Below the pieces are notes generated by a model that did no database searches, was not told where the DNA came from, and was given only the letters and a program-made list of their open reading frames with translations. Positions 32,734 through 55,049 of a stretch of 64,000 bases of DNA are shown piece after piece (positions within the stretch are counted from its first letter, which is position 1; every line of letters begins with the position of its first letter). The translations under genes were made by a program, and so were the position numbers. Source of the DNA: Loxodes magnus (Eukaryota > Ciliophora > Karyorelictea > Loxodida > Loxodidae); NCBI GenBank assembly GCA_946699065.1, contig CAMPDV010000120.1, forward strand, positions 248,001 to 312,000, in the 5' to 3' direction.

Positions 32734-32745
32734 TTTTCTAGCATA

Positions 32746-33295
32746 TTAAGTTTTAATTATATATACTCCTAAAATAATTTTAAATGCTTAAATTTAATTT
32801 ATTTAAACTCATAACTTTTTATTTAAAAATTTAATTCTTATAAATCTAAAGTTTCTTAATAAATCAAATCTTTACTATAACTCATTCTTTATATATGATA
32901 AATACTTTTATTTTAATAAGCAGATGTAAAATAATATAAATTAAGTTTAATATTCATCTAGTTTTTTTGTTAATTATTTAGAAGTTACTTTATCAATGTT
33001 ATTAGATCTTCTCTTAAAATTTAAATTTATTTTATTTAAGTGAAAATAAATGATTTTATAGGCCTTTTTTTAATTTTAATGAAACAATAAAGATTTTATG
33101 TTCTAATAATAATCTTTAATTAATAAAATAATCATTAATGCTATCAATTTTATATAACTTATATTTATGATTCAGATTTGTTTTATAAAGTTAATCTTTT
33201 ACCATAAGATTCAACTTATTTTTTTGCTATTTATTAGGTTTATAATAGTGCAAAATTATAATATTTTAATTTTATCTAAAGATGTTTAAGTTATT
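32746..33295. other. AT-rich spacer with an unoccupied insertion site
   Basis: No gene. Positions 32804-32831 are the single, unoccupied copy of the 28-bp site that is duplicated around element H7 in the right arm. Confidence 0.6.
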
Positions 33296-33922: not shown

Positions 33923-34224
33923 TTTATTTATAAAAATAATGAAAATAAGGTTTTAAAGCAAATTATAATGTAAATTTCTATATTAGTTAGAATTAATTTT
34001 AAACGTTAATTTTTATGAGACCAAATAATATGTTAATAGTACATTTTTTACTTTATTAGAAATTTATAAGTATATGTTGATATTTAATAAAAATCACTAT
34101 ATAAAGCAAATATAACTTATTAATTCTTAAATTAAACTATCATAATATCCTTCAAATTAATGTTTCCTTTTATTAATTTAAATAAAAAGAAAGCTTTAAA
34201 ATCTGCAATGATAGCTTAGCATAC
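33923..34224. repeat. Shared 5' flank of B-box/ubiquitin-like genes, inverted at 36332-36632
   Basis: About 300 bp upstream of gene A is repeated in inverted orientation upstream of gene B, and again upstream of gene D (57404-57705). It starts next to the ATG and ends in AGCTTAGCATAC. Such conservation of non-coding flank could mark a shared promoter or simply a recent duplication; the sequence alone does not decide. Confidence 0.75.
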
Positions 34225-34570
34225 AATAACAAGAAAGGCTTAGCAGTCATCTATCTTTATTTTTATTAAGTCCTATTACATAGACTTTAACTGACTCAAT
34301 ATTTGAACACATTATAGCTATACGCTTTTTCCATTTCTACTTTAAAGAAATGGAAGAAGCTAGGAGATATCCAGAACCCGATATAGGAAGAGTCTTTGAA
34401 TAAAAATGAAACTAAAAATTTCGTATTTGTAATAAGTAAAAAGATATTTTAGTTTTATGGAATTAAAAATAATGACAAATCAAAATTTCCAACTTACTTT
34501 ATATTGAAAATTATATAGAAATAAAAATAAGAAATTAATTTCATTTAAAAGCACTTTACGATATAAAGAC

Positions 34571-34850
34571 TGCCCACTGCACAGATATTAGGAGAGCAGC
34601 TTGAAGGATATAAATTTCCAGAAATAAATTATATATACTTAGCAAGGAATATAGGCAAGAAATCATCTTAATCTTTAATTGCGAACTAATTTATATAGTT
34701 TTCGGTATGACTTAGATTGTGTCATTATCCTGCGAAAAATTAGCTCTTTGAGTGTGGAAGAAAAGTAACTTTTAGACATACCTTAGAATGTATCTACTAC
34801 TTGGACTGATTTAAAATCTTTCTGATAAACTTCCTGGCAAAAATTTATTA
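34571..34850 (+). pseudogene. MSTAQ family remnant, copy 2
   Basis: Plus-strand blocks TAQILGEQLEGYKFPEINYI and LARNIGKKSSQSLIANQ read in one frame. A second frame holds VEEKQLLDIPQNVSTTWTDL, which aligns with the second half of copy 1. The start codon position reads TGC and there are at least two frame changes or TGAs. It lies head to tail upstream of gene B. Confidence 0.5.
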
Positions 34851-34951
34851 AGATAAATAAAATGAGACCCAGTCTACTTAAACCAGCATTTTAATTTTAC
34901 TCAATAATCAGAATAAGAAAGTAAAATTTTAAATTTAAACAATAATTTACA

Positions 34952-35900
34952 TAGTCAAGAATTAAAAATTGAAGGCTTCAAAAAAGGTTTCTACAACACC
35001 TCCAAGAAGGAGAGGAAACCAGAAGCCACTCTCAGTCAGTCTTCTTTTACTTAACACTAACATTTTTCTTAATAATCCGGAACATAAGTCCAAGAAGAAC
35101 AGAAGTAATCTAAGAAAATCATCCATGCAATCACCTCTACGTCTCAGAAGAAACCCAGAAAGCAGATTTCGTCTGCTTTGTACCAGGAGGTATCAGAATT
35201 TAATCCTTCTGGCCAGATGAGCTTGGAATATCTCATCAAAGAGTACTAAATCTCCAGGAAGAGATCAAGAAGCTAAAGAAGGACAATCAAATGCTAAAGC
35301 AACAGTTTAACCTAGCAGAAGGAATAGAATCAAGACTCATGTCCTAGGAAAGAGAACTAAGCGCTTTTTGGAATATATCACAAGATCAGAGTAGCTAATC
35401 CCAAAGATAGCTCCAGAAACAGACAGAACTGGACAATAGACTTGAAAAAATAGAAGAGAAACTGCAACGACAAATAGAGTAAAATGAGCGAAGAAGTGAT
35501 CCAATGGTGATTGAGAAGAAAGAAACGAGAAAACCTAAAAGAATTCAGAAAATATGTTATTATTGTAATTCGGGAGTACATTTATGTAGAAGATGCAAGA
35601 AATTCCTAAGTTTCAAAAATTAATACTGAACAACGTAAAGAAAACTACAACCGCAATAAAGGAAAAAACATCAAATGTAATAGAGAAGAGATAGAGAAAG
35701 ACTTTATATGATTGAGATTGGCAAGATCTACATAAAGAAATCAGAACAGAATGGAAGATGAAACCGAAGACAATATGACCAAGTGAGAGAGAGAGAATAT
35801 CAAATTTTTAAACATTTTTATATAATTCCGGAACAATCCGGCGATCGGCAGGAAGGGTGAAATTCCTCCAAGATTACCAAACTTAATTTTATTATTATTA
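34952..35900 (+). mobile_element. ORF1-only retroposon H6; absent from the matching site at 58.13 kb
   Basis: Flanked by direct repeats TAATTTACA (34943-34951, 35901-35909), with a TTATTATTATTA tail. The duplicated segment on the right has one copy of the site (58129-58137) and no element. The coding region, about 34965-35629, begins EGFKKGFYNTSKKERKPEAT (the usual ATG reads ATT). It passes the conserved block SALYQEVSEFNPSGQMSLEY, changes frame once, then gives a coiled coil (LNLQEEIKKLKKDNQMLKQQ) and the CCHC knuckle CYYCNSGVHLCRRC. The 3' UTR is about 270 bp. Few breaks suggest it is fairly young. Confidence 0.88.
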
Positions 35901-35909
35901 TAATTTACA

Positions 35910-36331
35910 AAGTAAAAGACAATTATTATTTAGTAAAGCATATAAAATCAAGCAAAACTTTAGGTGAAATAAAAAGAAAATTTTAGAAGGTATTAAGAAA
36001 AAAAAAGATGTAAGAAGCCAAAAGATAAGAGAAGTTATACATTAATAATTAAAATTTTATAAATTTAAGTAAAGAATTAAATCAGAAGCTTCATTAGTAA
36101 CTCTTTAATTAAAAAGAATTAATTAATTAAATTTAGATTTAAAATCTCTAAGCCTTAACCAAAAATTTTTTCCGATATATAAACTGTTTAAATCTAAAGC
36201 TTTTATATAACTTTAATGAAGATTTGATAGAATAAAGATAAAAGTCTTAGTTGTAATACTAAAAATATTTATATATATAAGACTTTATTTTGATTATAAA
36301 TATAAAAAATAAAATTCTTAAAAATATAAAA
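35910..36331. other. AT-rich spacer upstream of gene B flank
   Basis: No gene. Matched in inverted orientation at about 57.72-58.12 kb. Confidence 0.5.
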
Positions 36332-36632
36332 GTATGTTAAGCTATCATTGCAGATTTTAAAGCTTTCGTTTTATTTAAATTAATAAAAGGAAACATTAAT
36401 TTGAAGGATATTATGATAGTTTAATTTAAGAATTAATAAGTTATATTTGCTTTATATAGTGATTTTTATTAAATATCAACATATACTTATAAATTTCTAA
36501 TAAAGTAAAAAATGTACTATTAACATATTATTTGGTCTCATAAAAATTAACGTTTAAAATTAATTCTAACTAATATAGAAAGTTACATTATAATTTGCTT
36601 TAAAACCTTATTTTCATAATTTTTATAAATAA

Positions 36633-37487
36633 ATGGAAAAACTATGTGAGTGGTGCGAAAGTAAAGAAGCAAAGTTTTTCTGCTAATTTTGCAAGATTTC
36701 TTTATGTGCTAAGGATCTGGAGACCCATTTTAATTTTACTTAAAAACATAGTAAGGAGCACATTATTCCAATTTAAAATAATTATTAAAAGCCTAAAACA
36801 ATGTAAATAATAGTTAAGACATTGACAGGAAAACAAATAAATTTAATAGTATTTCCTACTGATAGTATTTTGAGGGTAAAAAGTTAAATTCAAGATAAAG
36901 AAGGAAATTCTCCTGATTAATAGAGATTGATTTATGCTGGAAAATAATTAGAAGATGAAAGAACTTTATCTGATTATAATATTTAGAACGAATCAACACT
37001 TGATTTAGTTGTAAGATTAAAAGTTAATATGTAAATATTTATTAGAAATCTAGCAGGAAAATAAATCACCTTAGACGTTGAACCTTCAGATTCAATCGAA
37101 AATGTCAAAGCGAAAATTTAAGATAATGATGGAACTCCTCCAAATTAGCAGATATTAATTTTTGCTGGAAAATAATTAGAAGATGGAAGAACTTTATTTG
37201 ATTATAATATTTAGAAAGAATCAACACTTGATTTAGCTGTAAGATTAAGAGGTAATATGTAAATATTTATTAGAAATCTAGTAGGAAAATAAATCACCTT
37301 AGACGTTGAACCTTCAGATTCAATCGAAAACGTTAAAGCGAAAATTTAAGATAATGATGGAACTCCTCCAGATTAACAGAGATTAATATATGCTGGAAAA
37401 TTATTAGAAGATGGAAGATCTTTATCTGATTATAGAATTTAGAGAGAATCAATTTTTTATTTGGTTTGGGGATTAAGAGGCCGCTGA
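36633..37487 (+). CDS. B-box / three-ubiquitin-like protein, gene B (intact)
   Basis: 284 residues, ATG to TGA unbroken under the ciliate code. The B-box at residues 5-39 has C5, C8, C17, C20, C25, D28, H32, H39. Three ubiquitin-like domains start at MQIIVKTLTGKQINLIV, MQIFIRNLAGKQITLDV and MQIFIRNLVGKQITLDV. The last two keep EPSDSIENVKAKIQD, the I44 and K48 positions and the LSDY/LFDY loop. K6 is Arg in the last two, K33 is Asn, and K63 is Lys in domain 2 but Arg in domain 3. Domain ends are LKVN, LRGN and LRGR, so no di-glycine survives. It is closest in the window to canonical ubiquitin with an intact frame. Partner copy: 56553-57403. Confidence 0.9.
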
Positions 37488-37807
37488 AGAAAAACTATTA
37501 AAAATTTACTATATCTTAAATTAAATAGCTTTAAAATATTTTAATTATATTTTTAAATACAAATAAATAAATATAACAAATAAATTTAATTGTTTTTCTA
37601 TGTTTTTTATATAAACTTGCTTAAAAATTAAATTAAATAGCTTTGTTAAATTATTCTCAAAAGGTGCTAAATTTTAAATATTACTATATTTTATATTACT
37701 TCGTTATTAAATTTTTAAGTTAAAGTTAATAAATATATAAAATATAAGCATTTCTTGTTTATTCACAATTAGACTCTAAATCATTTATTATAATATATAA
37801 ATAGACT
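37488..37807. other. AT-rich 3' flank of gene B
   Basis: No gene. Inverted copy at about 56.24-56.55 kb. Confidence 0.5.
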
Positions 37808-39905
37808 GGCTTTAACAAGAGCTTTTTACCACTTCCTAAGAGCAGGAGAGCAAATCAGAAACTCCTTTTCTTATAGATCTTAATTTTAACTAAACATTTT
37901 TCAAAAGACAAACAATTATCCAGCAGAGAGGAAACTTATTAAATAAGAAAAAAGATTCACAATAACCAAATTAAGTGGATTTTCAGAGTATGATTATAGA
38001 AAAAATTTAAAATATGTAATAAGAAATTTAATAACTATCAGTACAGTTGCACTCATTTAAGTAAAAATTTAATGCCTTATAGCTAGCATTAATTGCTAAA
38101 ACATGAAAATAGCAAACCCAAATCTGAATATGAGACCATCCTCAATTCTAAGAACTTAATTTTCGAATAAAGTAGACAGACTAAAAGTTAATATTTGTAG
38201 GCTTAAGATAATCTACAGAAGTGATAAAAAGAAAAAATTTAAAGAAAATGAAAGATTTAAACTTTAATAAAAATTGGTAATTATCTGAATTTTAGTCAAA
38301 TACTTATTATAAGGCATTTTAAAATGGATAATGATTGATTCATTATCATGTAGCATAAAAAAGAGTAATACTATGAATGGTATAGAAAATTGGTTAAAAT
38401 TAAAAATGAAAGAGTAGGCTAGGCATGATCGCTTAATAAATATTGCTAGATTTTGAACCAGTATACACAAGTTTGAAAACTCATAACTTATTTTTAATAA
38501 TCTTGAGTGGTTGAACTATGGTTATTAAATAGAAAAATTTATGTTAGAGAGTAAAAAACTACCGATTGGCCAGCACCGAGTACCAATTTGTATAGCAAAT
38601 TGGAAATCTAATTGGATGATGATTAAAGCTCTATCAAAAGCTAAAGTAATAAAAATCATAAGTGATTTTTGAAGAGTGAAACAGCGATATAAATCGTTCA
38701 TTATTCGAAAATCTAGATATTGATATCTTTTATAAAAATGGAAATATAAGGGGGTGCATTAGAATGAAAATATATTTCTAACAGCCAAAGTAAGCTCTTC
38801 CTATCTTCAAATAGGGAAATAAAAGCAATTGACGAAATTGGTGTCCTATTACTTTATTAAATTGCTTATTTAAATTTTATGACAAAACAATAGCACCTTT
38901 GCAATTATATATATGGGCTTAATATTCAACATCCAGTTTAAATTTTATTTCTTTGTAAACACTCAATTATTTAACAAATTTGAAATATCTAATAGATTAT
39001 TGACTTTCATAGAAGATTATAGCATAAAAAAAGACTATTAGCCACACATTAGACATAGAGAAAATATTTGATAGCATTTCCAGAAAATTGCTCTTTGATT
39101 GTCTTAGAAGACTTTTAGTTCTTAAAAAAATACTTAAAAACTATCTAAAGATACGATATCTTTTTTCTTGAATAAAGCTTAACATTAAAGTAGCTAAATA
39201 TGAAGTGATAGAATTTTTGAAGAAAAAAGGAGATTATAATAACATAAATTTAAATATCAAATGTATTTCAATAGCATAAAAGATGAAATCACTTACCTAG
39301 GATTTAAATTAGGAAATAATTAGGATGCTTTTCCTTAAGTCACCCATAATAAATTCAATAAGTAATTTATAAAGGAGACAATAATCTATCTATGAACTGA
39401 GAACATATTCGAGCAATTTTTAGTTTAAATTCAATTAACGACACATTAATATTTAAGTCAATACATTTGCTTATATGGCTAAGATTTTGATGAATTTGAT
39501 CACATTTTCAATTGATTTTATTACACAATATTCTTTAGTAATTTAATGACCATCACATTTTTATTAGAAAATCTTCCAAAAAACTAATATTATATGATTA
39601 AAACTGAGTTAATTACAGATTGACTAAAATTAAAATTCCAAAAGTTGATAAATTTATTTAAACTTTATAATAAGGATCTAAGAAAGAGAAGGTTGGAAAT
39701 TTTCAAATTCCAAGAAGAAAATCAAATAAATCTCTTTAGTCAAGATTAAGAAAGTGAGCAGGATGAATTATAATGAGAAGCTTGATTTATGCTAAAGAAT
39801 TTTTAATTTAGCATATGTCATGATTTAAATAACATAGTTATGCCTTTAGGTTCAAATATTCAAAATATTGAAGCTTTTTTAATATTATTATTATTATTAT
39901 TATAT
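37808..39905 (+). mobile_element. LINE 3 remnant, internally shortened, (TTA)n tail
   Basis: It opens with the ORF1 leader (TGFNKSFLPLPKSRRANQKL) and later carries reverse-transcriptase blocks: RNWCPITLLNCLFKF at about 38840, SHTLDIEKIFDSISRKLLFD at about 39040, and DEITYLGFKLGNN at about 39285. It ends in TTATTATTATTATTATTATA at 39884-39904. At 2.1 kb it is too short for a full element, and frames change often. It is a different sequence from LINE 1, though related. Its first 320 bp are also present, inverted, at 55.92-56.24 kb. Confidence 0.7.
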
Positions 39906-39915
39906 AATTTAAAAT

Positions 39916-40128
39916 ATGGACAGTGAGTTTTAAGCTAGTCTCTAGCTTGAGACTCAATATCAGAAGAAGCGAGTCTTATTCTGTAGTCCGCGCCTCAGAT
40001 GCTCTCCTATTCACTATGCCGTCAACTTGGATAGGAGCTTGGTGGAAAGCAAGGCATAGCTGAGGCAAAAATAAACTAAGATTTTTAACTATAGAAGATA
40101 CTCAAGACTGATTTTTTTACTAGAATGA
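39916..40128 (+). other. GC-richer segment with nested self-complementary stems
   Basis: Directly after the LINE 3 tail comes a patch clearly richer in G+C than its surroundings. It contains three perfect 7-bp complementary pairs: GCCTCAG (39992)/CTGAGGC (40060), CTCCTAT (40004)/ATAGGAG (40031) and CTATGCC (40014)/GGCATAG (40053). The second and third interleave, so they could form a pseudoknot inside the first. A 70-codon open frame (39916-40128, MDSEFQASLQ...) also spans it, so coding cannot be excluded. Confidence 0.55.
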
Positions 40129-40305
40129 GAATTCCAAGAATTTCAACTCCGGCCTTAGACAGAATCACAAGAATAGAGAGAAGAAGGTTTCACATTTGTA
40201 AATTAAAACGAGGAGAAAAAAGTATCAAGACTATTTTATTAAAACATTATTCCGTGGATAGCCTAAAATTGTAGATCCACATTAATTAATTTATTTATTT
40301 ATAAA

Positions 40306-40720
40306 ATGGATGTCGGTCGCGTCAGATAAATTAGTAGATAATCTGTTGCATTGTATACTGCATTGCGAGTAATCTCGCACTAGATACCATCACGCGGAAG
40401 GGTGGATAAGCTCAGTTGAGACATGCCTAACTAACCCGAGGGTTCTCTCTAGCAATATGAAACTTTGTCTGACGGACCTAAATGACTTAATAACTGTTCT
40501 TATTTAGACCTTATTCAAGAAGACTGTAGCTTTTGATTCAAGATTCGAGAGAAATCTTTAATAAGAAGATTCCCCATTTGGAGAAGATGAAGTGACTCTT
40601 TGTATGAATAGAATGAAATTAAGCTTTTAGAACATTTTTCTTAATATTAAATATTAATATTGAATAAGCTGCACGCCAACGAGGTGCTATGCACTCTATA
40701 ATCATTCTTATTTATTTATA
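40306..40720 (+). mobile_element. SINE-like element S, copy 2
   Basis: About 400 bp from ATGGATGTCGGTCGCG to ACTCTATAATC plus a TTATTTATTTAT tail. It has the hairpin GCGAG-TAA-CTCGC at 40365-40377. An AAGCTCAGTTGAG stretch near 40408 resembles a tRNA A box, but no convincing B box lies at the right distance, so pol III origin is unproven. Copy 3 follows directly in the same orientation. Confidence 0.75.
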
Positions 40721-40747
40721 TCTTATTTTCTATTTATTATATAAAAT

Positions 40748-41150
40748 ATGTATGTCAGCCGTGATCAGTAGAACTAGTAAATAATCTTGGGCAGTGTATA
40801 CTGTATTGCGAATAATCTCATACTAGGTATCTCCACAAGGAAGGGCAAATAATCTCGGAAGAGATAAGCGTAACTTTCCCAAGGCTTTCGCTAGCAGTAT
40901 GAATGTTTGACTGAAAGGCCTGCTAATCTTTGTTTTAATAACTAATTCCTATAATGATCTTATTCAAGAAGACTGGAATATTTTATTCAAGATTTAAGAA
41001 TTATTTTTAATAAGAGATTCACCATTTAGAGAAGCTGACTTGACTCTTTGGATGAATAGAATGATAACAAGTAGTATGAGAGCATTTTTTTAATATTAAT
41101 ATAGAAAAAGCTGCGCATGAACGAGGTGCTACGCACTCTATAATCATATT
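40748..41150 (+). mobile_element. SINE-like element S, copy 3
   Basis: Diverged copy (ATGTATGTCAGCC start, CACTCTATAATCAT end) right after copy 2, with small indels relative to it. It is more worn than copies 1, 2 and 4. Confidence 0.72.
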
Positions 41151-41399
41151 TATTTAATTTTGCAAATTAGTCTTATAATTAGTCATTTTAAACTTAAAGA
41201 TCTTCCTAAATTTATTTGTAGAAATTTCTTATTTCTGAGAATGAATTAAAAATAATTATATTAATTACTAATATTTCTTTAATTTCTTTTATAATAATGT
41301 CAAATTTTACTATTAAGTTGAATTTGCTATTTTAATTAAATTTACTCTTTAATTCCTATTAAGAAATTATTTTACATTTCTTAGAAACCTTAAAACTTT

Positions 41400-41760
41400 A
41401 AATATTTTCCAAAATATCTTACATGTTTAAGATATTTTGGATACAATTTAAGAGTTTTTGGTGTAATCTGGTTCTTTGTCTATGAGTATATTTATAGATA
41501 TTTATAGTGTTATTAGTTAATGTCAATATTTTAAAGATAGCATAGTTGTTTTTAAAATAATTGTAAGAATCTTACTAATTGATATCTTCATACTGCTTTA
41601 TAATAAACTCCTTAATAGATTTATAATCCTTTTTAACTAATTTAAGTTGTAAGCAGTTCAAAATTACGCTTTAGAACCTATCTATATACAGTCTACTTGA
41701 TAGCAGTCTCTTTATCCTGGATAAAGAAGAGTCGTTAAGAGTACTCTTGCAATATTTTAT
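41400..41760 (-). pseudogene. Decayed relative of the 85-residue ORF
   Basis: The minus strand reads a match to LQEYS, then DKETAIKQTVYRQVLKRNFE and LTTQISQK, in the order of the intact ORF at 27126 (YQEYNLSDFSLSGNKEAVVK). There are frame changes and a TGA. It lies head to head with gene C. Confidence 0.4.
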
Positions 41761-41859
41761 ATTAGCTTATTTTATAATTACTATAAAATAATAAAAAATA
41801 AAATTTAAGTTACAATATAATTTATTTAAAACCTTATTTTCATTATTTTTATAAGTAAA

Positions 41860-42485
41860 ATGGAAAAACTATGTGAGTGGTGCAAAAGTAAAAAGCGAAA
41901 TTTTTCTGCTAATTTTGCAAAAAAACTTTATGCGCTAAGGATTTGCTAATCCATTTTAATTTTAATTAAAAACATAGTAAGGAGCACATTATTCCAATTT
42001 AAAATAATTAGTAAAAGACTAAAACAATGTAAATAATAGTTTAAACATTGACAGGAAGAAAAATAAATTTAATAGTATTTCCTACTGATAGTATTTTGAA
42101 AATAAAAAGTTAAATTCAAGATAAAGAAGGAACTCCTCCTGATTAATAGAGATTGATTTATGCTGAAAAATAATTAGAAGATGGAAGAACTTTATCTGAT
42201 TATAAAATAACAGCTGAATAAACAATTAATTTTATGCAAAGACTTCTTGGTGGTATGCAAGTATTCATAAGAAACTTAACTGGTAAGACTGTATCTCTTG
42301 ATGTTGTAAAAACTGATACCATTTTAAAGGTAAAATAAAAATACTAAGAAAAGGAAGCAGTTCCAGTTGAACATTAAGTATTTATAGTTGGTGGGAAGGA
42401 GTTAGAAAATAATAAAACTTTGGAATATTATTTAATAACAGCTGACTATACAATTAATTTATTGCAAAGACTTCCTGGCTGCTGA
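41860..42485 (+). pseudogene. B-box / tandem ubiquitin-like gene C, one frameshift (right arm)
   Basis: Mirror partner of intact gene A. A single-base loss inside the B-box (41890-41900 region) shifts the frame after MEKLCEWCKSK. The two ubiquitin-like domains that follow are fully open, with LIYAEKQLEDGRTLSDYKI in domain 1, the LLGG-Met joint and the LPGC end. Total length is 626 bp against 627 for gene A. The upstream match with gene A stops about 45 bp before the ATG, so this is also where the arm homology ends. Confidence 0.85.
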
Positions 42486-42977
42486 AATAACTTAAACATC
42501 TTTAGATAAAATTAAAATATTATAATTTTGCACTATTATAAACCTAATAAATAGCAAAAAAATAAGTTGAATGTTATGGTAAAAGATTAACTTTATAAAA
42601 CAAATCTGAATCATAAATATAAGTTATATAAAATTGATAGCATTAATGATTATTTTATTAATTAAAGATTATTATTAGAACATAAAATCTTTATTGTTTC
42701 ATTAAAATTAAAAAAAGGCCTATAAAATCATTTATTTTCACTTAAATAAAATAAATTTAAATTTTAAGAGAAGATCTAATAACATTGATAAAGTAACTTC
42801 TAAATAATTAACAAAAAAACTAGATGAATATTAAACTTAATTTATATTATTTTACATCTGCTTATTAAAATAAAAGTATTTATCATATATAAAGAATGAG
42901 TTATAGTAAAGATTTGATTTATTAAGAAACTTTAGATTTATAAGAATTAAATTTTTAAATAAAAAGTTATGAGTTTA

Positions 42978-43567
42978 TATATATATAGTAAACTAAAAGT
43001 AATTAAAGTTTAGCATTCCCTGGATTTTCAACCAGGTTTTTGCTACCATTTTTTTAGCGTGGATGGATACCACGCCATTTCTTTTTGTGGATGGAACCAC
43101 TGAGAATCTTCTGTCTTTTATAAGAATATCTTCTTCTTGTAAATTCCCGTTTCGGTGATTCAGAGTCTGCTAAGCATTCTTAACGTTCTTTGTTGTTCTT
43201 TCATCTAAATTTATCTCCACTGATCGCAATTTTGTAATAGGTGTCACTTTGATTTGCAATAATAGCAATTTTTGATTGGTCTTTTCTTGAATCTCTTCAG
43301 AAATACTTTTTTTTCAAGTTAATCGATTCTTTGGAGTAATTCTTTATTAATCTTTTCGTCATTCTATTTTTCTTGGATGTTTGTTTATGTAGAAACTTTT
43401 TCAATAATCATATTTTGTTCTTGCTTAAAATTCGATTGAGATTATTCATATAGTTACTATTCCGTGACTAAATTATTTTAAATCAATTGTCGTCTTATTA
43501 TTAGTAGCTCGTTGTTTTAATCTTCGATAGTATTCATTAGTTCTCTTATTTTTTCCCCTTGATTGTA
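42978..43567 (-). mobile_element. ORF1-type retroposon H7, 5'-truncated, 28-bp target duplication; absent from left arm
   Basis: Perfect 28-bp direct repeats at 42950-42977 and 43568-43595 flank 590 bp, and the left arm has one copy (32804-32831). A (TA)n tail at the left end fixes the minus orientation. The 3' UTR hairpins GCGTGG/CCACGC (43057-43075) and CCTGG/CCAGG (43019-43036) match those of H3 and H8. Upstream is Lys/Glu/Asn-rich coil-like coding without a clear knuckle. The long target duplication and truncated 5' end are typical of target-primed reverse transcription. Confidence 0.85.
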
Positions 43568-43665
43568 AATTTTTAAATAAAAAGTTATGAGTTTAAATAA
43601 ATTAAATTTAAGCATTAAAAAGTATTTTAGGAGTATATATAATTAAAACTTAATATGCTAGAAAA

Positions 43666-44620
43666 ATTAATAAAAAATGGTGGAAGGCTTTAGATCTGTT
43701 TTTTACACCACCTCCTAAAAATAGAAGAGAAAACCGAAAACCATTAACTTTCTCTCGCTTAACCTTAATATCCTGGAACCTAGTCCAACCAGGAAGAATA
43801 GCAACATTTTAAGAAAGCCTAACACGTGGAAACCCCTACCTCAGAAGAGAAACCGAGAAAGCAGATGAAGTCTGCTCTCCACCAGGAGGTGTCGGAGTTT
43901 AATCCTTCTGGCCAGATGAGCATGGAACAGCTCATCAAAGTGGTGCTGAACCTCCAGGAAGAAGTTAGGAAGCTTCGTAAAGAGAATGACAAACTATCAC
44001 AAATGATACAGCACGGACTGTAAGACACATTAGACCTCAGAATGTCTAACTAGGAAAGAGAGATCGATGTTCTATGGAAGTACTAACAAGAACAGTTTAG
44101 TCAGATAAATTCCCAAGTTCAGTAGATCCAAGCCCAGAGCTAGTAGTTTGAAAACATTTTCCAAAGTCAAAAGAGTCTCCACAGCTAGCAGATTCTATCA
44201 GAATAGAATTTCAGTTCCGATAAGATGGAAATAGAAAAGAATTCCAAACCGGATCAATAAAAAGGACCTAAGATAAGGAAACTATGCTACTACTGCAAAA
44301 GTAAATATCATTTGTGGAAGAACTGTGGATAATTCGGAAAAGTAAAGGAAAATTCATGGAAAAAGCAAGTTATACAGTAGATTAAAAAAAGGAAAAACCA
44401 AATCTGATGTAGAGAGAATGGAAAAGTTTATAGATTGAAAACGGACCTTGAATTGGAAATATTGGGAAAAACGATAAACGAATGAAATGACAAAAGAAGG
44501 AAGACAAGAAATACAAGACTCGCGAGTTCTGGAGCTCGTTAAAAACTAGGCTCAAACTTAAAAACTTCTTTTAAGCGGTGACTGTCTGGATCCGCTAAAC
44601 AATTTATTTAATAATAATAA
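43666..44620 (+). mobile_element. ORF1-only retroposon H4 with target duplication (right arm)
   Basis: 955 bp between direct repeats TATGCTAGAAAA (43654-43665, 44621-44632), with a (TAA)n tail at 44609-44620. Coding starts at ATG 43677 (MVEGFRSVFYTTSQKQKRKP) and changes frame once. It then stays open to TGA 44405-44407 through SALHQEVSEFNPSGQMSMEQ, a coil (LNLQEEVRKLRKENDKLSQM, then Gln-rich) and the CCHC knuckle CYYCKSKYHLWKNC, ending RKNQI. It has a 210-bp 3' UTR. There is no endonuclease or RT, so this is an ORF1-only, half-LINE-like element. A nucleic-acid-binding role follows from the knuckle. Confidence 0.87.
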
Positions 44621-45079
44621 TATGCTAGAAAAGTAATAAAATGTTTATTAAATTTTAAATTATATTACTGTAATTAATTTTAATTATAGAAAGAAATCCA
44701 CTTAATAAATTTAAAAATTAAGAGATAGAATATAGAGTTTTAGAATTTAATTACAATCGTAATATCCAAACGAAACTATAATAGTGTTGGAACTCCTTCA
44801 TAAAAGAAGTGATTATTATTATAGAGAAATTGTTGGAGATAGAGCAAACTAATGATTTTATTAAATCATGCTAATAAACAGAATAAATGATTGTTTGGAG
44901 TTATTTTCAGTTTTTCATTAACTAACAATAATATAACAAAAAGCAAAAATCTAACTTCTAATAATTCCTCATATCAGTTCTATAATATATTTTAAGAGAT
45001 ACATTTTTAAATTAAAAAATCATAGATTATAGAGCATGTAATCATATGCTTTTCTCAAATTACTTCTTTTCCATTTGAG

Positions 45080-47060
45080 TAATTTATTGGTCTTTCATTT
45101 TTTTACTTGAAAATTGCTAATCTTCTCTTCTATAGTTGCTTATGAAAGACTTTGACTAATTTAACTACTTTAGAAAGCTAATTTCTTGAGAAATTCTAAT
45201 TTATATAAATTTAATAAATGAAATTAGTTTCTTCTAATCCTTCTCAAAAGTAACTAATGGTTAGATAATTTACAAAATGAATTTCTATAGCGAAGACAAT
45301 TAAAAGCCTGTTAAATTAATTAAAATCTTAGTTATTTATATTAATATACTTGATTAAATATAAATGTGACGTTAACTGGGCTCATATTATAAATTAAAAG
45401 AGCAAGTTATCAGTTTATAGATGGAAATAATTTCTTGAGTAAGATGTTTATTCAATTTCGTGTATTATGCTTAAGGAAACACACTTTAGTTATTTTATAC
45501 TTGATCTATTATTCTTTTTGTAGTAGGCAAAGTGTTTTCCTTAGAAGACATTCTTAGAAGAATTTGCTTTTGTTTTTATAAGTGAGATGCTTATTAAAAT
45601 CTTGAAGAGTATGAGTTTTTAAGTTGATACATTTAGATGTTTTTACTTAAATCTCTAATATTGTAAGTATATTAAGAGCATTTTGGCATTATCTGAGTCA
45701 GGATTCTCTTAAATAATTTCGTTTAACTTAAAGTAAAAGCGCATGAACTTCATTGTTTCTAAGTGGAAAAAAAAGGAAGTAAGATAAATAAAGCAAGACT
45801 ATTAAAATTAGATTTAGAAGATCTAAAGTTCATTATTGGTTTTAGTCTTTAAGATTTAGTTATTTTATTAATAATTCCTTTATGTCCTGATAAAGTAGTC
45901 TAAGGTGTAATATTATTACCATATTCTGCTTTAGGTAAAATGAAAGTTCTACAAAGTGTTTTAAAATTATGTGGCGAAATAACTACCTACTTAGATATTA
46001 TTGTAATAGCTTTAGAGATTGCTAGTCTGAAATCAGAGACTTTTGCTGCACAGTAGAGTTTATAGTTTTATCTTTCTCGTAATTAATACTCTAGGTAAGT
46101 AATTACTTATTTTTAGTTAGTTGGCTATCCATTAAGGATTACATTTATTTATTTTCTTCTTCCTTTTTTAGGAAATTTACTACCTCACATTTGAAAACGT
46201 TTAAGCTAAGCTTTACCCAAGAGGGAACTTAAACTGTGGCTTATAGTAATTTTTGAGCATTCGCTTATGAATTCGAAAGTCCTATTAAACGAACCGCAAG
46301 TCCTCGTACTTCAAAAGTTGTTGAGCATATAGTAAATCCATACTCTTTTTAGTTTTCTTCTTGGTATCTAATAAATATGTCATAATATAAAATAGTAAGC
46401 ATAGAATCCATTACCACTTTCTTGTAGAACTTTATTATTAATTTTAATTGATTTTGTAAGACTATCATCAATAATAAATAGCATCAATATTTCATAAAAT
46501 AATCCTAAACCAAAAATTAAGTTTAAGAGCAACCTCAGTCTTCTCAAATAGTCGCAAAGCAATTTCCTTGATACAGCATAGAACATTTTCTTAGCATCAA
46601 CTAAAATGGCTATTAGTTATTTTTTATGTGACCATTTACGTAGCAAATCAATAATCTATTAAATACATAAAATTAGTTAGGCTGTAGAATGTTTACGAAT
46701 AAATCCAAATTAAGCTGATGCGAAATAATTCGATTATAAGTGTATTTATATAATCTTAAGGTTATTGCTTTACCATTTATTTTTAATAAACAATTTAGTA
46801 AAGCAACTGGGCGTCAGTTACGCTAAACACTCTTCCTTCTCTGATTAAAAATAGAAAGAATATTTACTTCCTTTATTGCATTTGGTATAGTAAAGGTTCT
46901 TAACATATTATTTATAAAATTTGAAATCATTTAAAGCAAATCTTCGCCTGCATATTTGATAAGTTCCGCTTTGATACTGTCATTTCCTGAAGCTTTGTTG
47001 TTTGTCTAATTTATCTATTATTTTAAAATTCTAAATCTGTAAAAAGAGTAATATTTAAAA
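45080..47060 (-). mobile_element. LINE 1 ORF2: reverse transcriptase region (right arm)
   Basis: Inverted copy of 29340-31320. The block at 46380-46586 translates identically to its left-arm partner. It has the same broken RT blocks, so the element was already inactive before the palindrome formed. Confidence 0.75.
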
Positions 47061-47739
47061 ATTGGCTTAGTTTATTTACTATAAAAGGTTTATTTTAATA
47101 TATTTCATCAATTTATTCTTAACTTAAGTTTAAAGGCTTATTAAAAACTTGATTCTCTATTTTTTATAAATTATTATGTTTAACTTAAATTAAAATTACT
47201 TTTATTACGAACTCTTGCCTCTATTAAGTTTTTACTCTCTTAAGTATATCTTAAGGATTTTATTTATATTGTTATGCGTTTCTTTGGCTTTCTATTTTTC
47301 AATTTTTAAAATTAGTGAAGATGATGTTTTTATTATTTTTTTCTATTATGATTTGGAAACTTCCTAATTATGACTTCCTCGTTAAGACAATTTTTTTAAA
47401 TTGAATATTATCTTTCTTTGCTTAAGCGACTAATTTAAAAAACTTGGTAATTTTTAATAAAGTTTTGATTAATTTTATTGACTAAATGCAGTTTATACAT
47501 TTCAATTAATTAGATTTTAAATAAATTTTTATTAAAACTAAATTATTTTTAGTCCAGTCAAGTTATTAATATTATTAAAATTGCCAACAAAAAGAGTTTA
47601 GCAATAACTTATTGTTAATGGATCCTGTAATTAAGATATTTTAAAGAGTAAACTTCATTATTATTCTAATAAACATCTTTTTAAATCATATTTCAAGGTA
47701 CAATTTGATGGAAAACGATCAGTATAAAGTCTAGAATTT

Positions 47740-48842
47740 ATTTTAAATTTAGTTTGCTATTTTAATTTAATTTACTCTTCTATTTTAATTTTTAATTGAT
47801 AAAGTTAATTCATTAAAAATAACTGTTCACCTTCCAGTTTAAATGAAGTTTTAAATGTATAAAATATCCGTTCCTGTATGTTCTGTCCTTGCATTGCACT
47901 TTTTCCTTGACTTCTCTCTTTTATATAATCTGAGTTGAGAACTTTTTCAAGAATTTCTCAATTTTTTGAGGGGAAGAATTCCGTCGCTCGTTACTTCAGT
48001 TGCTATTAGTTAATATTTCTCCAGATATTCATTCTTTTTTTTTTATTGGGTCATTTCCGTCATAAATGTCAAGTGCTGTTGCAAATGTAGTATCTTTTTC
48101 TTGCTCTATTAAATGTCTTTTCTTATTTCTCTATTTCAATTGGAGTTCATTATGAAGGCTTCTACAGGTTTTCTTCTATTAATTTGAGTCTTAAATCTAA
48201 TTTTACTCAGTTTTTCTCGTCTTGCTCTTGCATTATTCAAATATCATTCTCTAAACTAGCCATTGCTCATAAACTCCTTCTTTAGCTCTCGGTCATCATG
48301 TGGACTACATCATTATCTCATGATTTATAAAATCCTGATTTATTACAAATATCTCTTCCTTCTGGGAGTTTAATTCCTCTTCAAGTTTTTTATGTTTCTA
48401 ATAAGTTGATAAATTAGCTGTTTCATCTACTAAGAGTCCATTTGTTCTATTTCAGTATTGTCTAAATCAAACGTTATAGTATCTATATTGAATTATCATA
48501 CTTTACCTTCCCCGCTTATTTTTTATTTTTTAGTTATTACTTTTATAGATTCAGTTGAATGATCTCTTTTTTCAGTTTTCAATGGAGGCGTTGAGAGCTG
48601 TATTAATTATTCTTTTCTGAATTTTTATCTCAGTTCTTACCTGTCCTTTAATATAGGAGATCCGCTTAATTTTAATTTGTAGGAGTTAGTATTTTTTATA
48701 AGTTCTTCTAATCTATTAGATAGTTCTGGTTATTTTTATTAAGAAGAGCATTAAGTTGAAGAAGGCGTGGTGAGAATATGTGCTTCTGGTTTTCTCTCTT
48801 GTTTTGAGGAAGTGGTAAAAAACCCTTCTTGAAACCAGCCAT
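47740..48842 (-). mobile_element. LINE 1 ORF1 region (right arm)
   Basis: Inverted copy of 27545-28650. It starts at ATG 48842 with MAGFKKGFLPLPQ and carries the same acidic and coiled-coil blocks and breaks. Confidence 0.65.
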
Positions 48843-48995
48843 TTTACTTTTATAATTGGTAAAGTATCTTAAATATCTTAATTTTTGTCTAAAATATCTA
48901 GCATTTTCTAAGATTTTTTGGATACTATAGGTAATTCTTAGGCAGCAATCTGGTTCTTTTGTCCATAAGTATATTTCTAAGTTTTTAAAGTAGTC

Positions 48996-49253
48996 TCAGT
49001 TAATATCCATGTTTTATAAGGAATTACGTGATTATTTAAAGGAATTCGAAGAATTTGATTAATTGATAATTAACTACTATTTTCCAATTAACTGCTAATA
49101 ATCTACTAATTTAGATTATATTAAGTACAAATTTAAAATTTCTAAGTTATTTACTATATGTCTCTGCTAAATCTATTTGACAACAGCCTCTTTATTCCCG
49201 GATAAAGAAAAGTCGCTAAGATTATATTCTTGGTATATTTGTTATTCTTCCAT
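48996..49253 (-). CDS. Conserved 85-residue ORF of unknown function (right arm)
   Basis: Inverted partner of 27126-27383, open from ATG 49253 to TGA 48996. Preservation of the frame in both arms is weak support for function, since the arms are young. Confidence 0.5.
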
Positions 49254-49559
49254 TTTTATATTATAAGAGTAGAATAAACTAAAATTAAATTTGATTACAA
49301 ATTTTGTTTAAGATTTGCTAATTACTTAGTGAAAGAACGTAGCAATATAAGGATATTTAGAATTATTCTAATTAGTAAAAGAATAATTTAACATTAAGCA
49401 AGCTAAGATATATAAAATAATAAATAGAGAATGCTAATTTAGATTTATATTAAGATTTATTTTTAATATTTAATTATTAAAATAAACTCTACATTAAATC
49501 TTAATCACACTATTTAGAAATAACTTAACATTATTAACTTCACCATTTAAAAATATTAA

Positions 49560-50160
49560 CCCCGGGTTTTTACTAAATCAATTTAGATTGGTAAAAGTTA
49601 ACAAGATTCAGAAATAAACAAATAGAAATTAGAAAAGCCAAGAAAAAAAATTAGTTCTCCTTCAAAATAAGAAACTAAAATTAATAAGATTTTTAAGAAA
49701 CTATATAGCAATAAGTATCAGAATTCAATATCTAATAATAGATAAGCTATGAAAACCTTATAAAGGTGGTAACCTCCAAGAAGAGGTTAAAAAGCTTCGA
49801 AAGGAGAACGCCAAGCTGACAGAATTAGTGACTGGAGGACTCTGAGATTCTATTGACCTAAGACTGAACAACCAGGAAAAAGAAATCAACGCACTCTGAA
49901 GCTATCAACGTGAACACATGAGTAAACATACTCTCAAGTCTAAAGGATATAGGACTAAAATTAACAGCTTGAGAACATTATTCAAAGTTAAAAGATTAAC
50001 TCCCAACTAAAACATGGAAATAGAAAAAGAAAACAATGAATAATAATAGTGAAAAATGAAAATAAGGAAAAGGAAATGTTGCTACTACTGTAGTAGCTAA
50101 TAACATTTATATAGAAATTACTAAAAATTCTTAAAATTAAAAAACATTATTGAATCTAGA
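49560..50160 (+). mobile_element. ORF1-only element H5, degenerate (right arm)
   Basis: Inverted copy of 26200-26790. The CCHC-like motif at about 50067-50105 has Tyr in place of the last Cys. Several frame changes and TGAs. Confidence 0.58.
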
Positions 50161-50820
50161 AAGACAAATCTATAGAAGATAAGAAAATTAACAACTACTG
50201 TAAATATATTAAACAGGACCTTAAAGAAGAAAAATTTATGATATTCAAGAGCGACCTTCTCACAAATTTATAAACTTCTTTGAGCAGCGGTCATGAACTA
50301 CTGCAAAACTATTTTTAATTATTTAATTAGAAATAAATTAACTTATTCAATTTAAAAGATTAATAGGAGATAAGTAAGAATTTGCTAAAGCTTTTACTAA
50401 TTAATAAATTATCTAAAAATTGAACATAAAAAGACAAAGGTTACATGGAAATTGATCGCTAGTTGGCAGGCAGTAAGTGGAGGTGTGCAAATAATACTGA
50501 ACACCAACGCTGTTTGTAAGTTTTCAGCTTTGAGGGTGAAATTATTCCATTCTGACCTCACCCTTTCTATACTTTTTTGATAAAAGGTAAGAATTTGATA
50601 GATGATATCGTAGAGAGAAGCAAGAAATTGAACTCTTATAAAGGTTCTGTAAAACTAAAGGCGAATCTATTTTAATTTAATTTAATTTAAGTATTGAACA
50701 TTAAGATACAATCAAAAGCATCAATCAAATTTTACCAATATTGTAAAATCTCCTTCAGAGTATAAGTGATAATGTGGAGAAAAGTTTGAGTACGAGCAAG
50801 CAAATTTATAAATTTGCTAA

Positions 50821-51651
50821 TACAATATTATAGAAAAAGGATGGCTCCAAAGAAGTAAAACTCTTAAAATAAAATGAACAATCAACAATAAGGTCAATTC
50901 ATTGAAATTTATTCTTTGATAGCTGATAATAAAAAAATTTAAGAATCAGTTTAAGATTTAACCTAAAGATCTATTTCATTAGCTAGTATTATCATCCAGC
51001 TTTAAAACGAAAACACTTGGCTAAAACAGAAATCTCTCTCAAACCTTCATTGCTCTAACTTAACCAAGAAATGGAAAAAACGGAGCATAAAATCAAGCAA
51101 ATTGAAAAATTCAGTCATAGCAATCAACTCATTTTTAATCCTCAATATGATCCTATTGAAGTAGAAAATGAAATTAAGGCAATTCCCGCGAAGAAAGTTA
51201 AAGGATTACAACACTGCCGAAGATGCTACAAGATAGGGCTCATTTCAAGAAACTGTCCAACTAAATGCTTTTATTGCTAAAAAACAGGAAATTCTTCAGA
51301 GATTGTTAATACTTCAAGAGAAAACAATTATAAGGAACCCGAAATACTTGAATAAAATAAATTATACTGCTCCCAAGAAGGATAAATTTATAAGAAAAAA
51401 TTATACAGTGGTGAATAATTATTGAAGGACATTATAAATGCTTAAAATAGGAGAACGAGGTAAAATTTTGGTAATAATTGAGATTGAAGCAAAATACCAA
51501 TAATTAAGAAGGGCTAATTATGTGAAAGTCGATACGTAATAGAAGAGCAAGATTCTGGATAATTCATGAATTTTTGAACCAATTTATAAACTTACTCGTG
51601 ATAAGCCTAGCGAGGATGATGTCACGTTAATATATTATTATTATTATTATT
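50821..51651 (+). mobile_element. ORF1-only retroposon H2 with target duplication (right arm)
   Basis: 831 bp between direct repeats ATAAATTTGCTAA (50808-50820, 51652-51664), with a TTATTATTATTATTATTAT tail. The ORF begins at ATG 50841 (MAPKKQNSQNKMNNQQQGQF) and changes frame once near 51050. It continues MEKTEHKIKQIEKFSHSNQL to a Cys-rich segment, HCRRCYKIGLISRNC followed by CFYC, and ends at TGA 51479-51481. The Cys spacing is that of two successive CCHC knuckles, but the His positions are lost. This is a separate sub-family from H3, H4 and H6. Confidence 0.78.
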
Positions 51652-52179
51652 ATAAATTTGCTAAAGCATGTTAAGCTTTCAAAATTAAAATAAAATATTT
51701 TTAATTATAAATTTTTCTATACTTACAACTTTTAAAGTTGTGTAAAATAAAACTTGATTCTATATATTCTTCCAAAGTTTTTTACTTATTTAATTTTTTC
51801 TTTTTTGCTTTAAAAGTCTCAAAGTAATTAACACAAAGCTTTTTAAAAATCCTCTTGATTATTTTCATTATTATTATTTAATTTTTTCTAGTTTTTCAAT
51901 TCTAATTTTTAATTGATTTAAACTTTATTAATATTTTTCCAGATAGTTGTAGCATTGTAACAATAGATTTATTTCATTCCATTTTTCTAATTTATAATCT
52001 TAAAATAATCTATTTATATTCTATCAAGATTCAAAACCCATATTCTAAATTAGTTACTATTTTGATTTATAATTTACTATTTATTTTATTTATACATTTT
52101 GTTATTCTAATCTCTGAGACAGGAAAGTAGATTGCTTGCTCGACTTTATTGCAAACTTTTAAAGGTTTTTAATTTTCTG

Positions 52180-53773
52180 TCTTAAGACATAATTTTGAAT
52201 CAGATTTTTCTTATTTGTAAAAATGCTCTATAAGTCTTTCATTGCTCTTCTTTAAATTGATGAGTTTTCCTTGTGTTTTTAACTCTGCTTTAATTAGCTG
52301 CTAAAACTTAATAATTCAATTGTAAAGATATAAGATAATTACTATTAATCACTAAATCAAAAAAATAAATTATTTGACTTTGGATTTATTGAAGTTTTAA
52401 ATGCATAAAATCTCTGTTTTTGAAGTTCTCTTTAATTGTAATTTTTTATTTATTTCCCTTCTTCTTATATTCTTAGTTAAAAATTTATTTTCTTTCAAAT
52501 TTTCTCATTTCCCGATGAGAAAAATTCCTCCGCTTTTACTTTAGTTGCTAACATTTAAATTTTTCCAGATACTCATTCTTAGTTTAAGGCATTTCAGTCA
52601 TAAGCATCAAATACTATTGTGAATGTACATCTTTTTCTTGTTCTATGAGTGTTTTTTCTTATTTTTCTATTTCCATGAATTCCTTTAGAAAGCTTCTGCA
52701 AATTTTCTTCAATTTATAAGAGTCTTGAATCAATTTAAACTCAATTTTTCTCGTCTTGCTGTCTCATTATTCAAATATCATTCTTTAACCCTGTCATTCG
52801 TTCATAGACTCTTAATTAGCTCTTCATTTAACCATATGGATTTCATTATCATCTTCATGCTTTATCAGGCTCTGGCTTATTTAAAATATTTCTTCATTTT
52901 ATGAGTTTAGTTCCTCTTCAAGCTTTTTTATATTTTTAATAAGTTAATGTATAGGCTGTATCATTTATTAAGATTCCATTTAATTTACTTAGATATTATA
53001 TATATTACATAAAATGGATGTCGGCTGCGGCTTGAGAACTAGTAAGTAATCTGGTGCAGTGTATACTGCATTATGAGTATTCTCGCACTAGATACTAGGG
53101 AAGGGCGGATAAGCTCATTTGAGACATGCCTAACTTACCCCGAGGATTCTCTCTAGCAATATGAAAATTTGACTGACGGGCCTTAATGACTTTATAACTA
53201 ATTCTTATTTGGACCTTATTCAAGAAGACTGGAGCATTTGATTCGAGATTCGAGAATAATCTTTAATAAGAAGATTCCCCATTTGGAGAAACGGACATGA
53301 CTCATTGGACTTCTAGAATTTTAACAAGAAACATGAAAACATTTTTCTTAATATTAAATATTAATATTGAAAGAGCTGCTCGCCAATGAGGTGTTACGCA
53401 CTCTATAATCATTTTTATTTATTAATTATTTATCTAAGTCAAAGGTATTAGGATCTACTTTGAAATTCCATATTTAGCCTTCTTCGTTTATTTTTTATTT
53501 TTTTGACATTTTTTAAATGATTCAGTCGAAAATTCTCTTTTTTAGCTTTAAACTGTTCTAAATTTTTTTAGCTCCTTCTTGTTCTTTTATGGAAGAAAAC
53601 CGGTTTATTCTAATTTTTATAATTTATATTTATAATATTTCTTCCATTTAATAAGTTTTTTGTTTTTAAATATATTAAAATAGCGTTAATTTTAAGATGA
53701 TATGTGGAGATTAGAAATGCTTCTGATTTCTCTCCTTCTCTGAGTAGGTGGTAAAAGCTCTTTTTGAAGCTAG
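52180..53773 (-). mobile_element. LINE ORF1 remnant with SINE-like insertion (right arm)
   Basis: Inverted copy of 21728-23330, with the SINE-like element at the same place. Same leader and coiled-coil blocks, same breaks. Confidence 0.63.
53014..53412 (+). mobile_element. SINE-like element S, copy 4 (right arm)
   Basis: Right-arm partner of copy 1 (22091-22487). The stem GCAGT-GTAT-ACTGC lies near 53058, and the 3' end is GAGGTGTTACGCACTCTATAATC. The two partners are nearly identical, more alike than either is to copies 2 and 3. Confidence 0.75.
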
Positions 53774-55049
53774 GTATTTTGAATTATATATAAGATAATT
53801 GCTTTAAAAATAGATTTAACTTTCTTTCAAGATTTCTCTTCAGAATGATTAATTTCTTTTGCATAAAAAAGGTTTATTTGGTTATAATAGTTTAAATAAC
53901 TAGCTTTATTCTTTGGAACTCCTAAACTCTCTTATATTAATTATAATGATTTTGTTATTTGAAAAATAAATGTATTTGATCTTTCTTTTCTGTCTTTAGT
54001 AAAGCAGCAATTTAAAGAATTAAATAATCTAGTATATTTAAATAAAAATTCTATTTATAAAAGGTAAAATTAAATACTTAGATCATTTGCTGCTTATTGA
54101 AAGATAGTTGCTATAAACTAGAATAGTTATCAATATTTAATCTATTTATGTTTTGCAGATTTAATTCAAATAATCAAAGTTAATTTTAGATAATAGTTGT
54201 GTATTAAATTTTGCTGCTATCGTAACTAGATATTTCATCTAAGTTAGTAAAGCATGATATAAAATAATATTTATCAATATAATGTAATATTATATAAGAT
54301 ATACTTAACTTTAATTATTGTCTATAATTTTCTCTAAGAAACCAATTTTAAACTATAAAATTACTTTATTTATTTTACTTTCCCTATTTTTATCTAAATA
54401 TAATCAAACACCAAAGGAATGCTAATTAATGCTCAATTTTATTTCTTTTCATTGTCTTTTTTATTATAAAATAAATTTAAACTATAATCTTAATAAACTA
54501 CTAAGAATAAAAGTCTTAAAAGTGCCCAAATATTTTAGCCTAATTAAATTCCTCTTTTAATAGTATGATATAAAGTAATTAATTTACTAACTAACTATTA
54601 TATTTAGAACATGTCATCTATTAGATTAATACTTTTGCTTTTATTTGTTTAGTATTTTGGTAATTTTTATTATTTAATAGTTTACTTATTACCCATACAT
54701 TTTTATTATCAAATGTCTAAATTCTTAATATCTATTTATATTGTAATCATCTAATTATTATAGACTCTGATATAATCACTTTTTCAGTATTGAAAAGTTA
54801 CAAGATTTGCTAGAAAAACTAAATAAAAGGAATAATTTATTCAAGATTCTAATTTTAGAATATAGGAAAGAGAAGTTAATAACAAATATGTATTTCATAT
54901 TTACTGCTTATAACCTTTATAAATCAAATCTTTAATAATCTATATAACAATTAAAATCTACTTGGATCTTTTAAAACTACTTTTTTGTCGCTGCTTCTCT
55001 ACACGTAACTTAATGAAAATAACAACATTATTTTCTTATTTTCTGTAAG

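Follow-up and report, generated by a model that had tools for sequence, protein, structure and literature searches.

Short retroposons of the ciliate Loxodes magnus that encode a coiled-coil/CCHC protein and carry no reverse transcriptase

Our analyses of a 64,000-nucleotide stretch of Loxodes magnus DNA (hereafter the window; C120:248001-312000), together with searches of 705,730,643 bp of genome sequence, have identified several types of short retroposons that encode a protein with a coiled coil and a CCHC zinc knuckle and contain no reverse transcriptase (RT). Positions 43666-44617 of the window are a full-length copy of one such family, E43 (about 950 bp), flanked by a 15-bp target duplication. 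The elements are probably HAL1-like: protein-coding retroposons that depend on a LINE and whose protein works mainly in cis. The absence of RT, the retroposition and the selection on the protein are supported by the evidence given below, from which we infer the involvement of a helper LINE and the action in cis.

Genome and genetic code

The MAC assembly of L. magnus comprises 706 Mbp, and TGA is either Trp or stop in it depending on context (PMC11441545). In our RT searches TGA, TAG and TAA all occurred in frame inside RT domains (150 of the 150 scored matches, these being the best 150 of 3403 candidates). With all three codons as sense, every frame is open, and hence an open ORF proves nothing by itself. 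ORFs delimited with table 6 were dropped because the RT matches had TGA as sense. For the same reason the E43 ORF need not end at the TGA at 44407, a stop in table 6; the conserved C-terminal motif is found past this codon. Exchange of TGA and TGG is seen at two Trp columns of the protein, where codons 134 and 203 of the element at locus L063 are TGA and the aligned codons of E43 and the L034 element are TGG.

The E43 element, its copies and its insertion marks

The features of the E43 copy in the window are as follows.

43666-44617, plus strand: E43 retroposon, full-length, with one frameshifting deletion
43651-43665, plus strand: target-site duplication, 5' copy, TAATATGCTAGAAAA
44618-44632, plus strand: target-site duplication, 3' copy, TAATATGCTAGAAAA
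43669-43772 (envelope; aligned part 43675-43761), plus strand: 5' module common to LINE-A and other short types, with its ATG at 43677-43679
44285-44326, plus strand: CCHC zinc knuckle, CYYCKSKYHLWKNC
44402-44452, plus strand: conserved C-terminal motif, IWCRENGKVYRLKTDLE, its W being the TGA at 44405-44407 (a stop in table 6)
44574-44596, plus strand: 3' hairpin, AGCGGTGACTGTCTGGATCCGCT (C120:292574-292596)

This copy ends in a TAA-type tail, and a 1-nt deletion splits its N-terminal module from the main frame; in unbroken copies the module encodes about the first 35 residues. A BLAST search scored 40 near-full copies at 94-100% (best 40 candidates), and a genome-wide search with the 23-nt hairpin located 83 E43 3' ends at no more than 3 mismatches, with none in the reversed control. 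Full-length copies begin with A-rich sequence followed by ATGG (a base of which is changed in a few) and finish with CAATTTATTTAATAAT or a close variant of it, followed by a short A/T repeat.

A sequence-only reading of the window had proposed target duplications for elements of this kind, and these are borne out. Fifteen E43 insertions are independent in our judgement of their flanks (duplicates and loci short of the 5' end being left out), and an exact flank repeat of at least 13 nt is present at 6 of them, the longest matches ranging from 7 to 16 nt; among 210 mismatched 5'/3' pairs none reached 13 nt and the maximum, 12 nt, occurred once. Copies that are 5'-truncated are found at L040 (starting at nt 786, target repeat of 16 nt), at L034 (from nt 300, with a repeat of at least 12 nt with one mismatch by eye, 8 nt exact) and at L041 (from nt 450, no target repeat standing out in the flanks searched). 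Target duplications, a repeat tail and 5' truncation are thus all present, as in non-LTR retroposition of the TPRT type. When L003 is taken as the reference (and hence counts zero by construction), 18 of 19 E43 copies are frameshifted, which indicates that the family is mostly dead.

The encoded protein and selection on it

The short elements measure about 0.8-1.1 kb and consist almost entirely of one ORF; in those where both could be placed, the ATG is no more than about 20 nt from the 5' end. The protein comprises, in order, an N-terminal peptide (in module-bearing types), a coiled coil, the CCHC knuckle, a helix and the conserved C-terminal motif. In L003, L004 and L007, which derive by duplication from one insertion, the 5' ATG, the coiled coil, the CCHC knuckle and the C-terminal motif all lie in a single frame, and L063 and both L049 copies likewise read in one frame. 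Several subfamilies had been suspected from the window alone; about 15 or more types are distinguishable with an HMM of the CCHC and C-terminal motifs (our own reading of the list, which covers about 357 kb, overlaps included). Pfam searches of the proteins gave only sub-threshold matches to zf-CCHC and to other names, and the L063 protein matched no solved structure. An AlphaFold model (mean pLDDT 56, pTM 0.23) supports a helix at residues 85-168 and residues of about 191-230; a beta-hairpin predicted at 241-253, at the C-terminal motif, is no more than suggestive, its pLDDT being near 50.

Retention of the ORF, which had likewise been supposed, was assessed from Nei-Gojobori counts with all 64 codons as sense. 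Between E43 (L003) and the L034 element (274 codons) the differences at positions 1/2/3 number 51/32/108, with dN 0.153, dS 1.25 and a ratio of 0.12; the other forward frames give 1.36 and 1.48, and the reverse frames 0.24 (the frame with the same third positions), 1.84 and 0.80. A ratio of 0.17 was obtained between L063 and L064 (265 codons; 58/43/86). Comparisons within a subfamily give 23/26/23 (0.88) for L064 and the E34 element of the window and 12/21/20 (0.80) for L064 and L033. Third-position bias is weak between W258 and W432 (32/30/41, ratio 0.44), no DNA alignment was obtained between W258 and W623, and synonymous sites are saturated in more distant pairs of types. In the 19 E43 copies, among which L058-L062 may include segmental duplicates, singletons number 97/81/101 (p 0.30) and shared variants 28/15/21 (p 0.14), and fixed differences from the L034 element number 44/34/84 (p 2e-6). 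These results support the view that individual copies decay neutrally and that RT-less lineages stay coding between subfamilies.

The likeness of E43 and the L034 element extends to their 3' ends, only 7 of 2000 random windows scoring as well. Since these two share both the ORF and the 3' end, their common ancestor lacked RT, and the selection between them postdates the loss of RT; this argument, the central result of the analysis, covers the E43/L034 pair, not L063/L064.

Absence of reverse transcriptase from the short elements

Translated loci were compared with three RT domains, a search which matched 24 of 24 RT loci. No RT match lies within the element at any of 34 distinct E43 3' ends (39 reads) from the 83 genome-wide, five of the reads (L058-L062) spanning only the 3' 750 bp or so. 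This agrees with the earlier proposal of RT-less retroposons with a coiled-coil/CCHC protein. RT was matched in 3 of the 41 remaining sources, viz. L049, L052 and the window at about 38.8-39.4 kb, in no case inside a delimited short element. The match in L052 is weak and several kb away from its E43 copy, and that in the window, which is weak too and has no Pfam match, is the following.

38811-39429, plus strand: degenerate RT-like stretch, 21-27% identity in comparisons with LINE RTs (E values from about 1e-5 to 1e-9, depending on search size)

One copy, L049+, had appeared to carry its own RT downstream. This candidate was rejected: the RT-like sequence goes on upstream too, so the RT directly 3' of the copy is its insertion target. 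L049+ sits inside a class-D-like LINE, with translated RT on both sides (IKQQYIVLLYNK preceding the element, YKKGGQLEPLNYRP following it), and the near-identical L049- locus has no RT. The two young copies are 99.6% identical over 850 nt and lie in opposite orientation in different flanks; their target repeats are weak.

The elements could in principle be truncated ends of LINEs with RT located 3' of the ORF, but in full-length E43 copies the tail and the target repeat are reached some 950 bp after the 5' end, and none of 200 short-type modules has a scored RT at the spacing of LINE-A (best 150 of 3403 RT candidates scored, see below). A partner LINE with the E43 hairpin was sought at five divergent sites, and all five proved to be the same short element over about 750 bp. 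RT domains are also arrayed in tandem on C5131 and C20 (repeat periods about 2.50 and 2.53 kb), where part of a LINE has become a satellite.

The 5' module, LINE-A and alternative explanations

LINE-A is a 5.5-kb LINE with RT whose ORF1 starts with a module of about 105 nt (about 35 codons) that is also found in several short types. LINEs of 5-6 kb with RVT_1 have been reported from the Loxodes MAC assembly, in which most repeats are "unclassified" (PMC11441545), and LINE-A is probably one of them. An nhmmer search with a 5-sequence seed found the first 100 nt or so in LINE-A (L053, L056) and in 8 short types by our own grouping, the L040 type weakly. The W258 and W623 types gave no match in this search, and hence LINE-A may not serve all types. 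Frame 0 of L056 reads MVSFKKGFYTTSSEQERKPE and continues into the ORF1 body; the frame of L053 is broken further on. The pattern GGTTTYTWYACCACCTCC occurs, with one mismatch allowed, at 3,480 genome sites as against 3 in the control. Module variants of the LINE-A, L063 and L049 types occur, with two mismatches allowed, at 730, 787 and 603 sites, respectively (0 in the controls; the sets may overlap), and both of the L063-type sites that were fetched encode the protein of the short elements and have a tail of A/T repeats. Some 5' modules lie in duplicated or tandem blocks, in pairs about every 34 kb (C7:326682-397231) or every 5,253 bp (C56:243612-264647).

The likeness to LINE-A is confined to this module. 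Nucleotide identity between the L049 type and LINE-A is 84% over 35 codons (dN = dS = 0.18), and their local DNA alignment stops at nt 106; beyond residue 40 no similarity to LINE-A ORF1 was found, 70 to 324 of 500 shuffles scoring as high. The abrupt end of the match and the unlike proteins beyond it look like an exchange of 5' ends. A 3' end shared with LINE-A (a hairpin and an ATTTA tail, plausible by eye) was dropped after a random-window test: the 3' ends of E43, L034, L063, E34 and L049 match LINE-A at chance level (256-1289 of 3000 random windows as good), and those of L063, E34 and L049 likewise match that of E43 (834-1137 of 2000). As the 3' ends are unlike that of LINE-A, recognition of the 3' end by its RT is left unexplained.

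An RNA element at the 5' end was considered as a possibility and is not claimed. A three-tier nested 5' hairpin is 90.7% paired, better than in slid and shuffled controls; its double changes are, in our own reading, largely synonymous third positions of GFKKGFYTTSS..ERKPE. Fold z-scores range from -2.7 to +0.5, and RNAalifold favours another structure. With regard to an HDV-like ribozyme or to a Pol III promoter of tRNA, 7SL or 5S origin, Rfam gave no match in L053 5800-6400 or in window 27400-45000, and no tRNA was found in the window (bacterial code setting).

The module may have travelled in the opposite direction, from a short retroposon to the 5' end of LINE-A, the lineage of the short elements being older and independent. 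Such a course would not conflict with the dependence on LINEs that we favour, from which it differs in direction alone; we consider it a serious possibility, if a somewhat doubtful one. It is consistent with the presence of the module in 8 short types, with its match, among the LINE loci L053, L054, L055 and L056, to those of LINE-A only (the 5' ends of L054 and L055 are undelimited), and with the closeness of LINE-A and L049 over about 100 nt and nowhere else in the local alignment. The sequences compared, with few LINE families among them, do not polarise the direction.

It is also conceivable that the elements arose as mammalian HAL1 did, by loss of ORF2 from unseen LINEs with a coiled-coil/CCHC ORF1, the selection being mostly inherited from the parents. 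Such elements exist in mammals and arose several times (PMC5753468, excerpts), the N-terminal 35 codons do match a LINE ORF1, and our RT scoring covered the best 150 of 3403 candidates. We nevertheless regard this origin as unlikely. The three LINE classes that were read, viz. LINE-A (L056), class C (L054) and class D (L055), have in common an ORF1 body that differs from that of the short elements, and the ORF and 3' end shared by E43 and the L034 element place selection after the loss of RT. Moreover, when the first 100 exact modules of each type are compared, those of LINE-A type have a scored RT 3.0-3.6 kb downstream in 31 cases (and at 3,638 bp in one more), as against none at this spacing for the L063 type and none for the L049 type, where the scored RTs are the best 150 of 3403 first-look candidates and mostly LINE-A-like. 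A single one of the 200 short-type modules, of L063 type, has an RT less than 6 kb away, at 5.2 kb. With no match past residue 40 and unlike 3' ends, descent by plain loss of ORF2 is not demonstrated.

Multiplication by DNA-level duplication of the surrounding repeats, in which no retroposition took place, is very improbable. Some copies are indeed segmental, viz. those at L003-L007, which have common flanks, the mirrored copies in the window, and the 5'-truncated E43 insertion carried by tandem arrays of about 15.6-15.9 kb on C1763, C1444 and C3843. However, the copies are not reducible to one set of flanks: independent flanks have their own target repeats, 5'-truncated copies have such repeats too, and one element is inserted into an RT gene. 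That the elements are non-coding and SINE-like, their open frames an artefact of a code in which TGA, TAA and TAG are sense and every frame is open, is scarcely credible given the low dN/dS ratios (0.12 and 0.17) of a single forward frame, the TGA/TGG exchange at two conserved Trp positions and the conservation of the CCHC and C-terminal motifs across many types.

Comparison with known systems and a proposed cycle

HAL1 is non-autonomous, encodes only an ORF1-type protein and has several origins (PMC5753468, excerpts), and L1 likely supplies its machinery (PMC4161310, excerpts). The comparison with HAL1 made in the sequence-only reading holds in part. The strategy is the same, viz. an ORF1-type protein without RT, and module-bearing types (not W258 and W623) have a 5' end in common with a LINE. 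However, HAL1 is a derivative of L1, whereas the Loxodes elements match LINE-A ORF1 in the first 35 codons or so only and differ in the ORF1 body past residue 40 and in the 3' ends, as compared with LINE-A. The domains of L1 ORF1 differ from the zinc knuckle of the Loxodes elements. Further differences from HAL1 are the many types, the thousands of module sites and the occurrence in a ciliate with reassigned stops.

Plant gag-only LTR elements (viz. TR-GAG and BARE-2) have kept a structural protein and borrow their enzymes; the strategy is alike, but these are LTR elements and the mechanism is unrelated. SINEs have a non-coding body, whereas the Loxodes elements are under purifying selection in one forward frame. 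A different parallel is provided by trypanosomatid L1Tc/ingi and its RT-less partners NARTc, RIME and SIDER, in which the Pr77 5' signature is common to the autonomous LINE and the partners; Pr77 is a promoter and an HDV-like ribozyme, and NARTc and RIME are truncated LINEs (PMC4035085, excerpts). One 5' signature likewise occurs in autonomous LINE-A and in RT-less Loxodes elements. Unlike Pr77, the Loxodes module is protein-coding and starts close to the 5' ATG, and Rfam showed no ribozyme in the parts that were scanned; unlike NARTc and RIME, the Loxodes elements keep a selected ORF. The abstract and the sections consulted of PMC11441545 describe no RT-less protein-coding family, and no description of these elements was found among the open PMC papers listed for HAL1, Pr77, gag-only/ORF1p elements, ORF1-only LINEs and Loxodes retrotransposons.

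In the cycle that we propose for a LINE-dependent, cis-acting element, the RNA would be made and then translated, and the protein, judging from the pairing of a coiled coil with a knuckle (the model being of low confidence outside the helices and the knuckle), may multimerise and coat mainly its own RNA. The endonuclease and RT of a LINE would then be borrowed in trans for target-primed reverse transcription, and the new copies would decay neutrally. LINE-A, which has the same 5' module and is abundant, would be the best candidate for the helper. The module could serve in addition as a promoter or RNA signal. A preference for cis is suggested because a protein acting purely in trans could not shield its gene against competing non-coding elements.

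For LINEs in general it is still debated whether an ORF1-type protein works in cis or in trans. Should selection maintain the protein in RT-less lineages across several subfamilies, it probably helps its own RNA, as non-coding versions would otherwise win. Loxodes offers natural replicates for this question, and the common N-terminal module could be a docking or packaging signal. The elements may also account for part of the "unclassified" repeats of the Loxodes genome. In a wider reading, for which we would put the chances at not far below even, they form a long-lived RT-less class between LINEs and SINEs, with a cis-acting packaging protein, selected subfamilies and a coding 5' module exchanged with LINEs, in which the ticket to the LINE machinery would be the 5' end and the N-terminal peptide, not the 3' end.

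Duplication and other elements in the window

Much of the window between 20 and 58 kb is an imperfect inverted duplication (95-99%), either real or an effect of diploid assembly, which includes a second E43 copy; hence 43666-44620 and 31779-32733 represent a single insertion present in duplicate.

20064-33976 versus 41807-55442, and 35900-38137 versus 55902-58137: inverted duplication
31779-32733, minus strand: mirrored E43 copy at 99%, sharing its flanks; a segmental duplicate

The other short elements of the window, and parts of elements of further types, are as follows.

34956-35899, plus strand: E34-type element (module 34963-35055, CCHC 35555-35596)
25308-26137, plus strand: W258-type element without a module match (ATG 25316, CCHC 25841-25882)
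42978-43565, minus strand: 5'-truncated relative of W258 (CCHC 43226-43267) with a 30-bp exact repeat at 42948-42977 and 43566-43595
62188-63018, minus strand: W623-type element without a module match (CCHC 62437-62478)
16821-16988, minus strand: CCHC and C-terminal motif of another type
26153-26314, minus strand: CCHC-like domain of another type (counterpart 50065-50286, plus strand)
27541-27639, plus strand: 5' module of another type (mirror 48749-48847, minus strand)
37805-37873, plus strand: 5' module of another type (mirror 56166-56234, minus strand)
21730-21817, plus strand: 5' module of another type (mirror 53686-53773, minus strand)

The truncated relative of W258 is probably the element that the sequence-only reading had listed as H7. 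Flank repeats in the window were scored against 156 mismatched pairs (median score 10, maximum 15). The 15-bp repeat of the W258-type element (25293-25307 and 26138-26152) scores 15, equal to this maximum. Those of the E34-type element (34942-34955 and 35900-35913) and the W623-type element (62174-62187 and 63019-63032) have one mismatch each and a score of 10, which is not significant alone, and their assignment relies on position.

Positions 1-15500 of the window consist of about eight near-identical head-to-tail units of 1854 bp, one frame of which is B-box-like and ubiquitin-like by eye. Genes that are polyubiquitin-like by eye, with repeats of 225-228 bp, are present as mirrored copies at 36886-37452 and 56561-57150.
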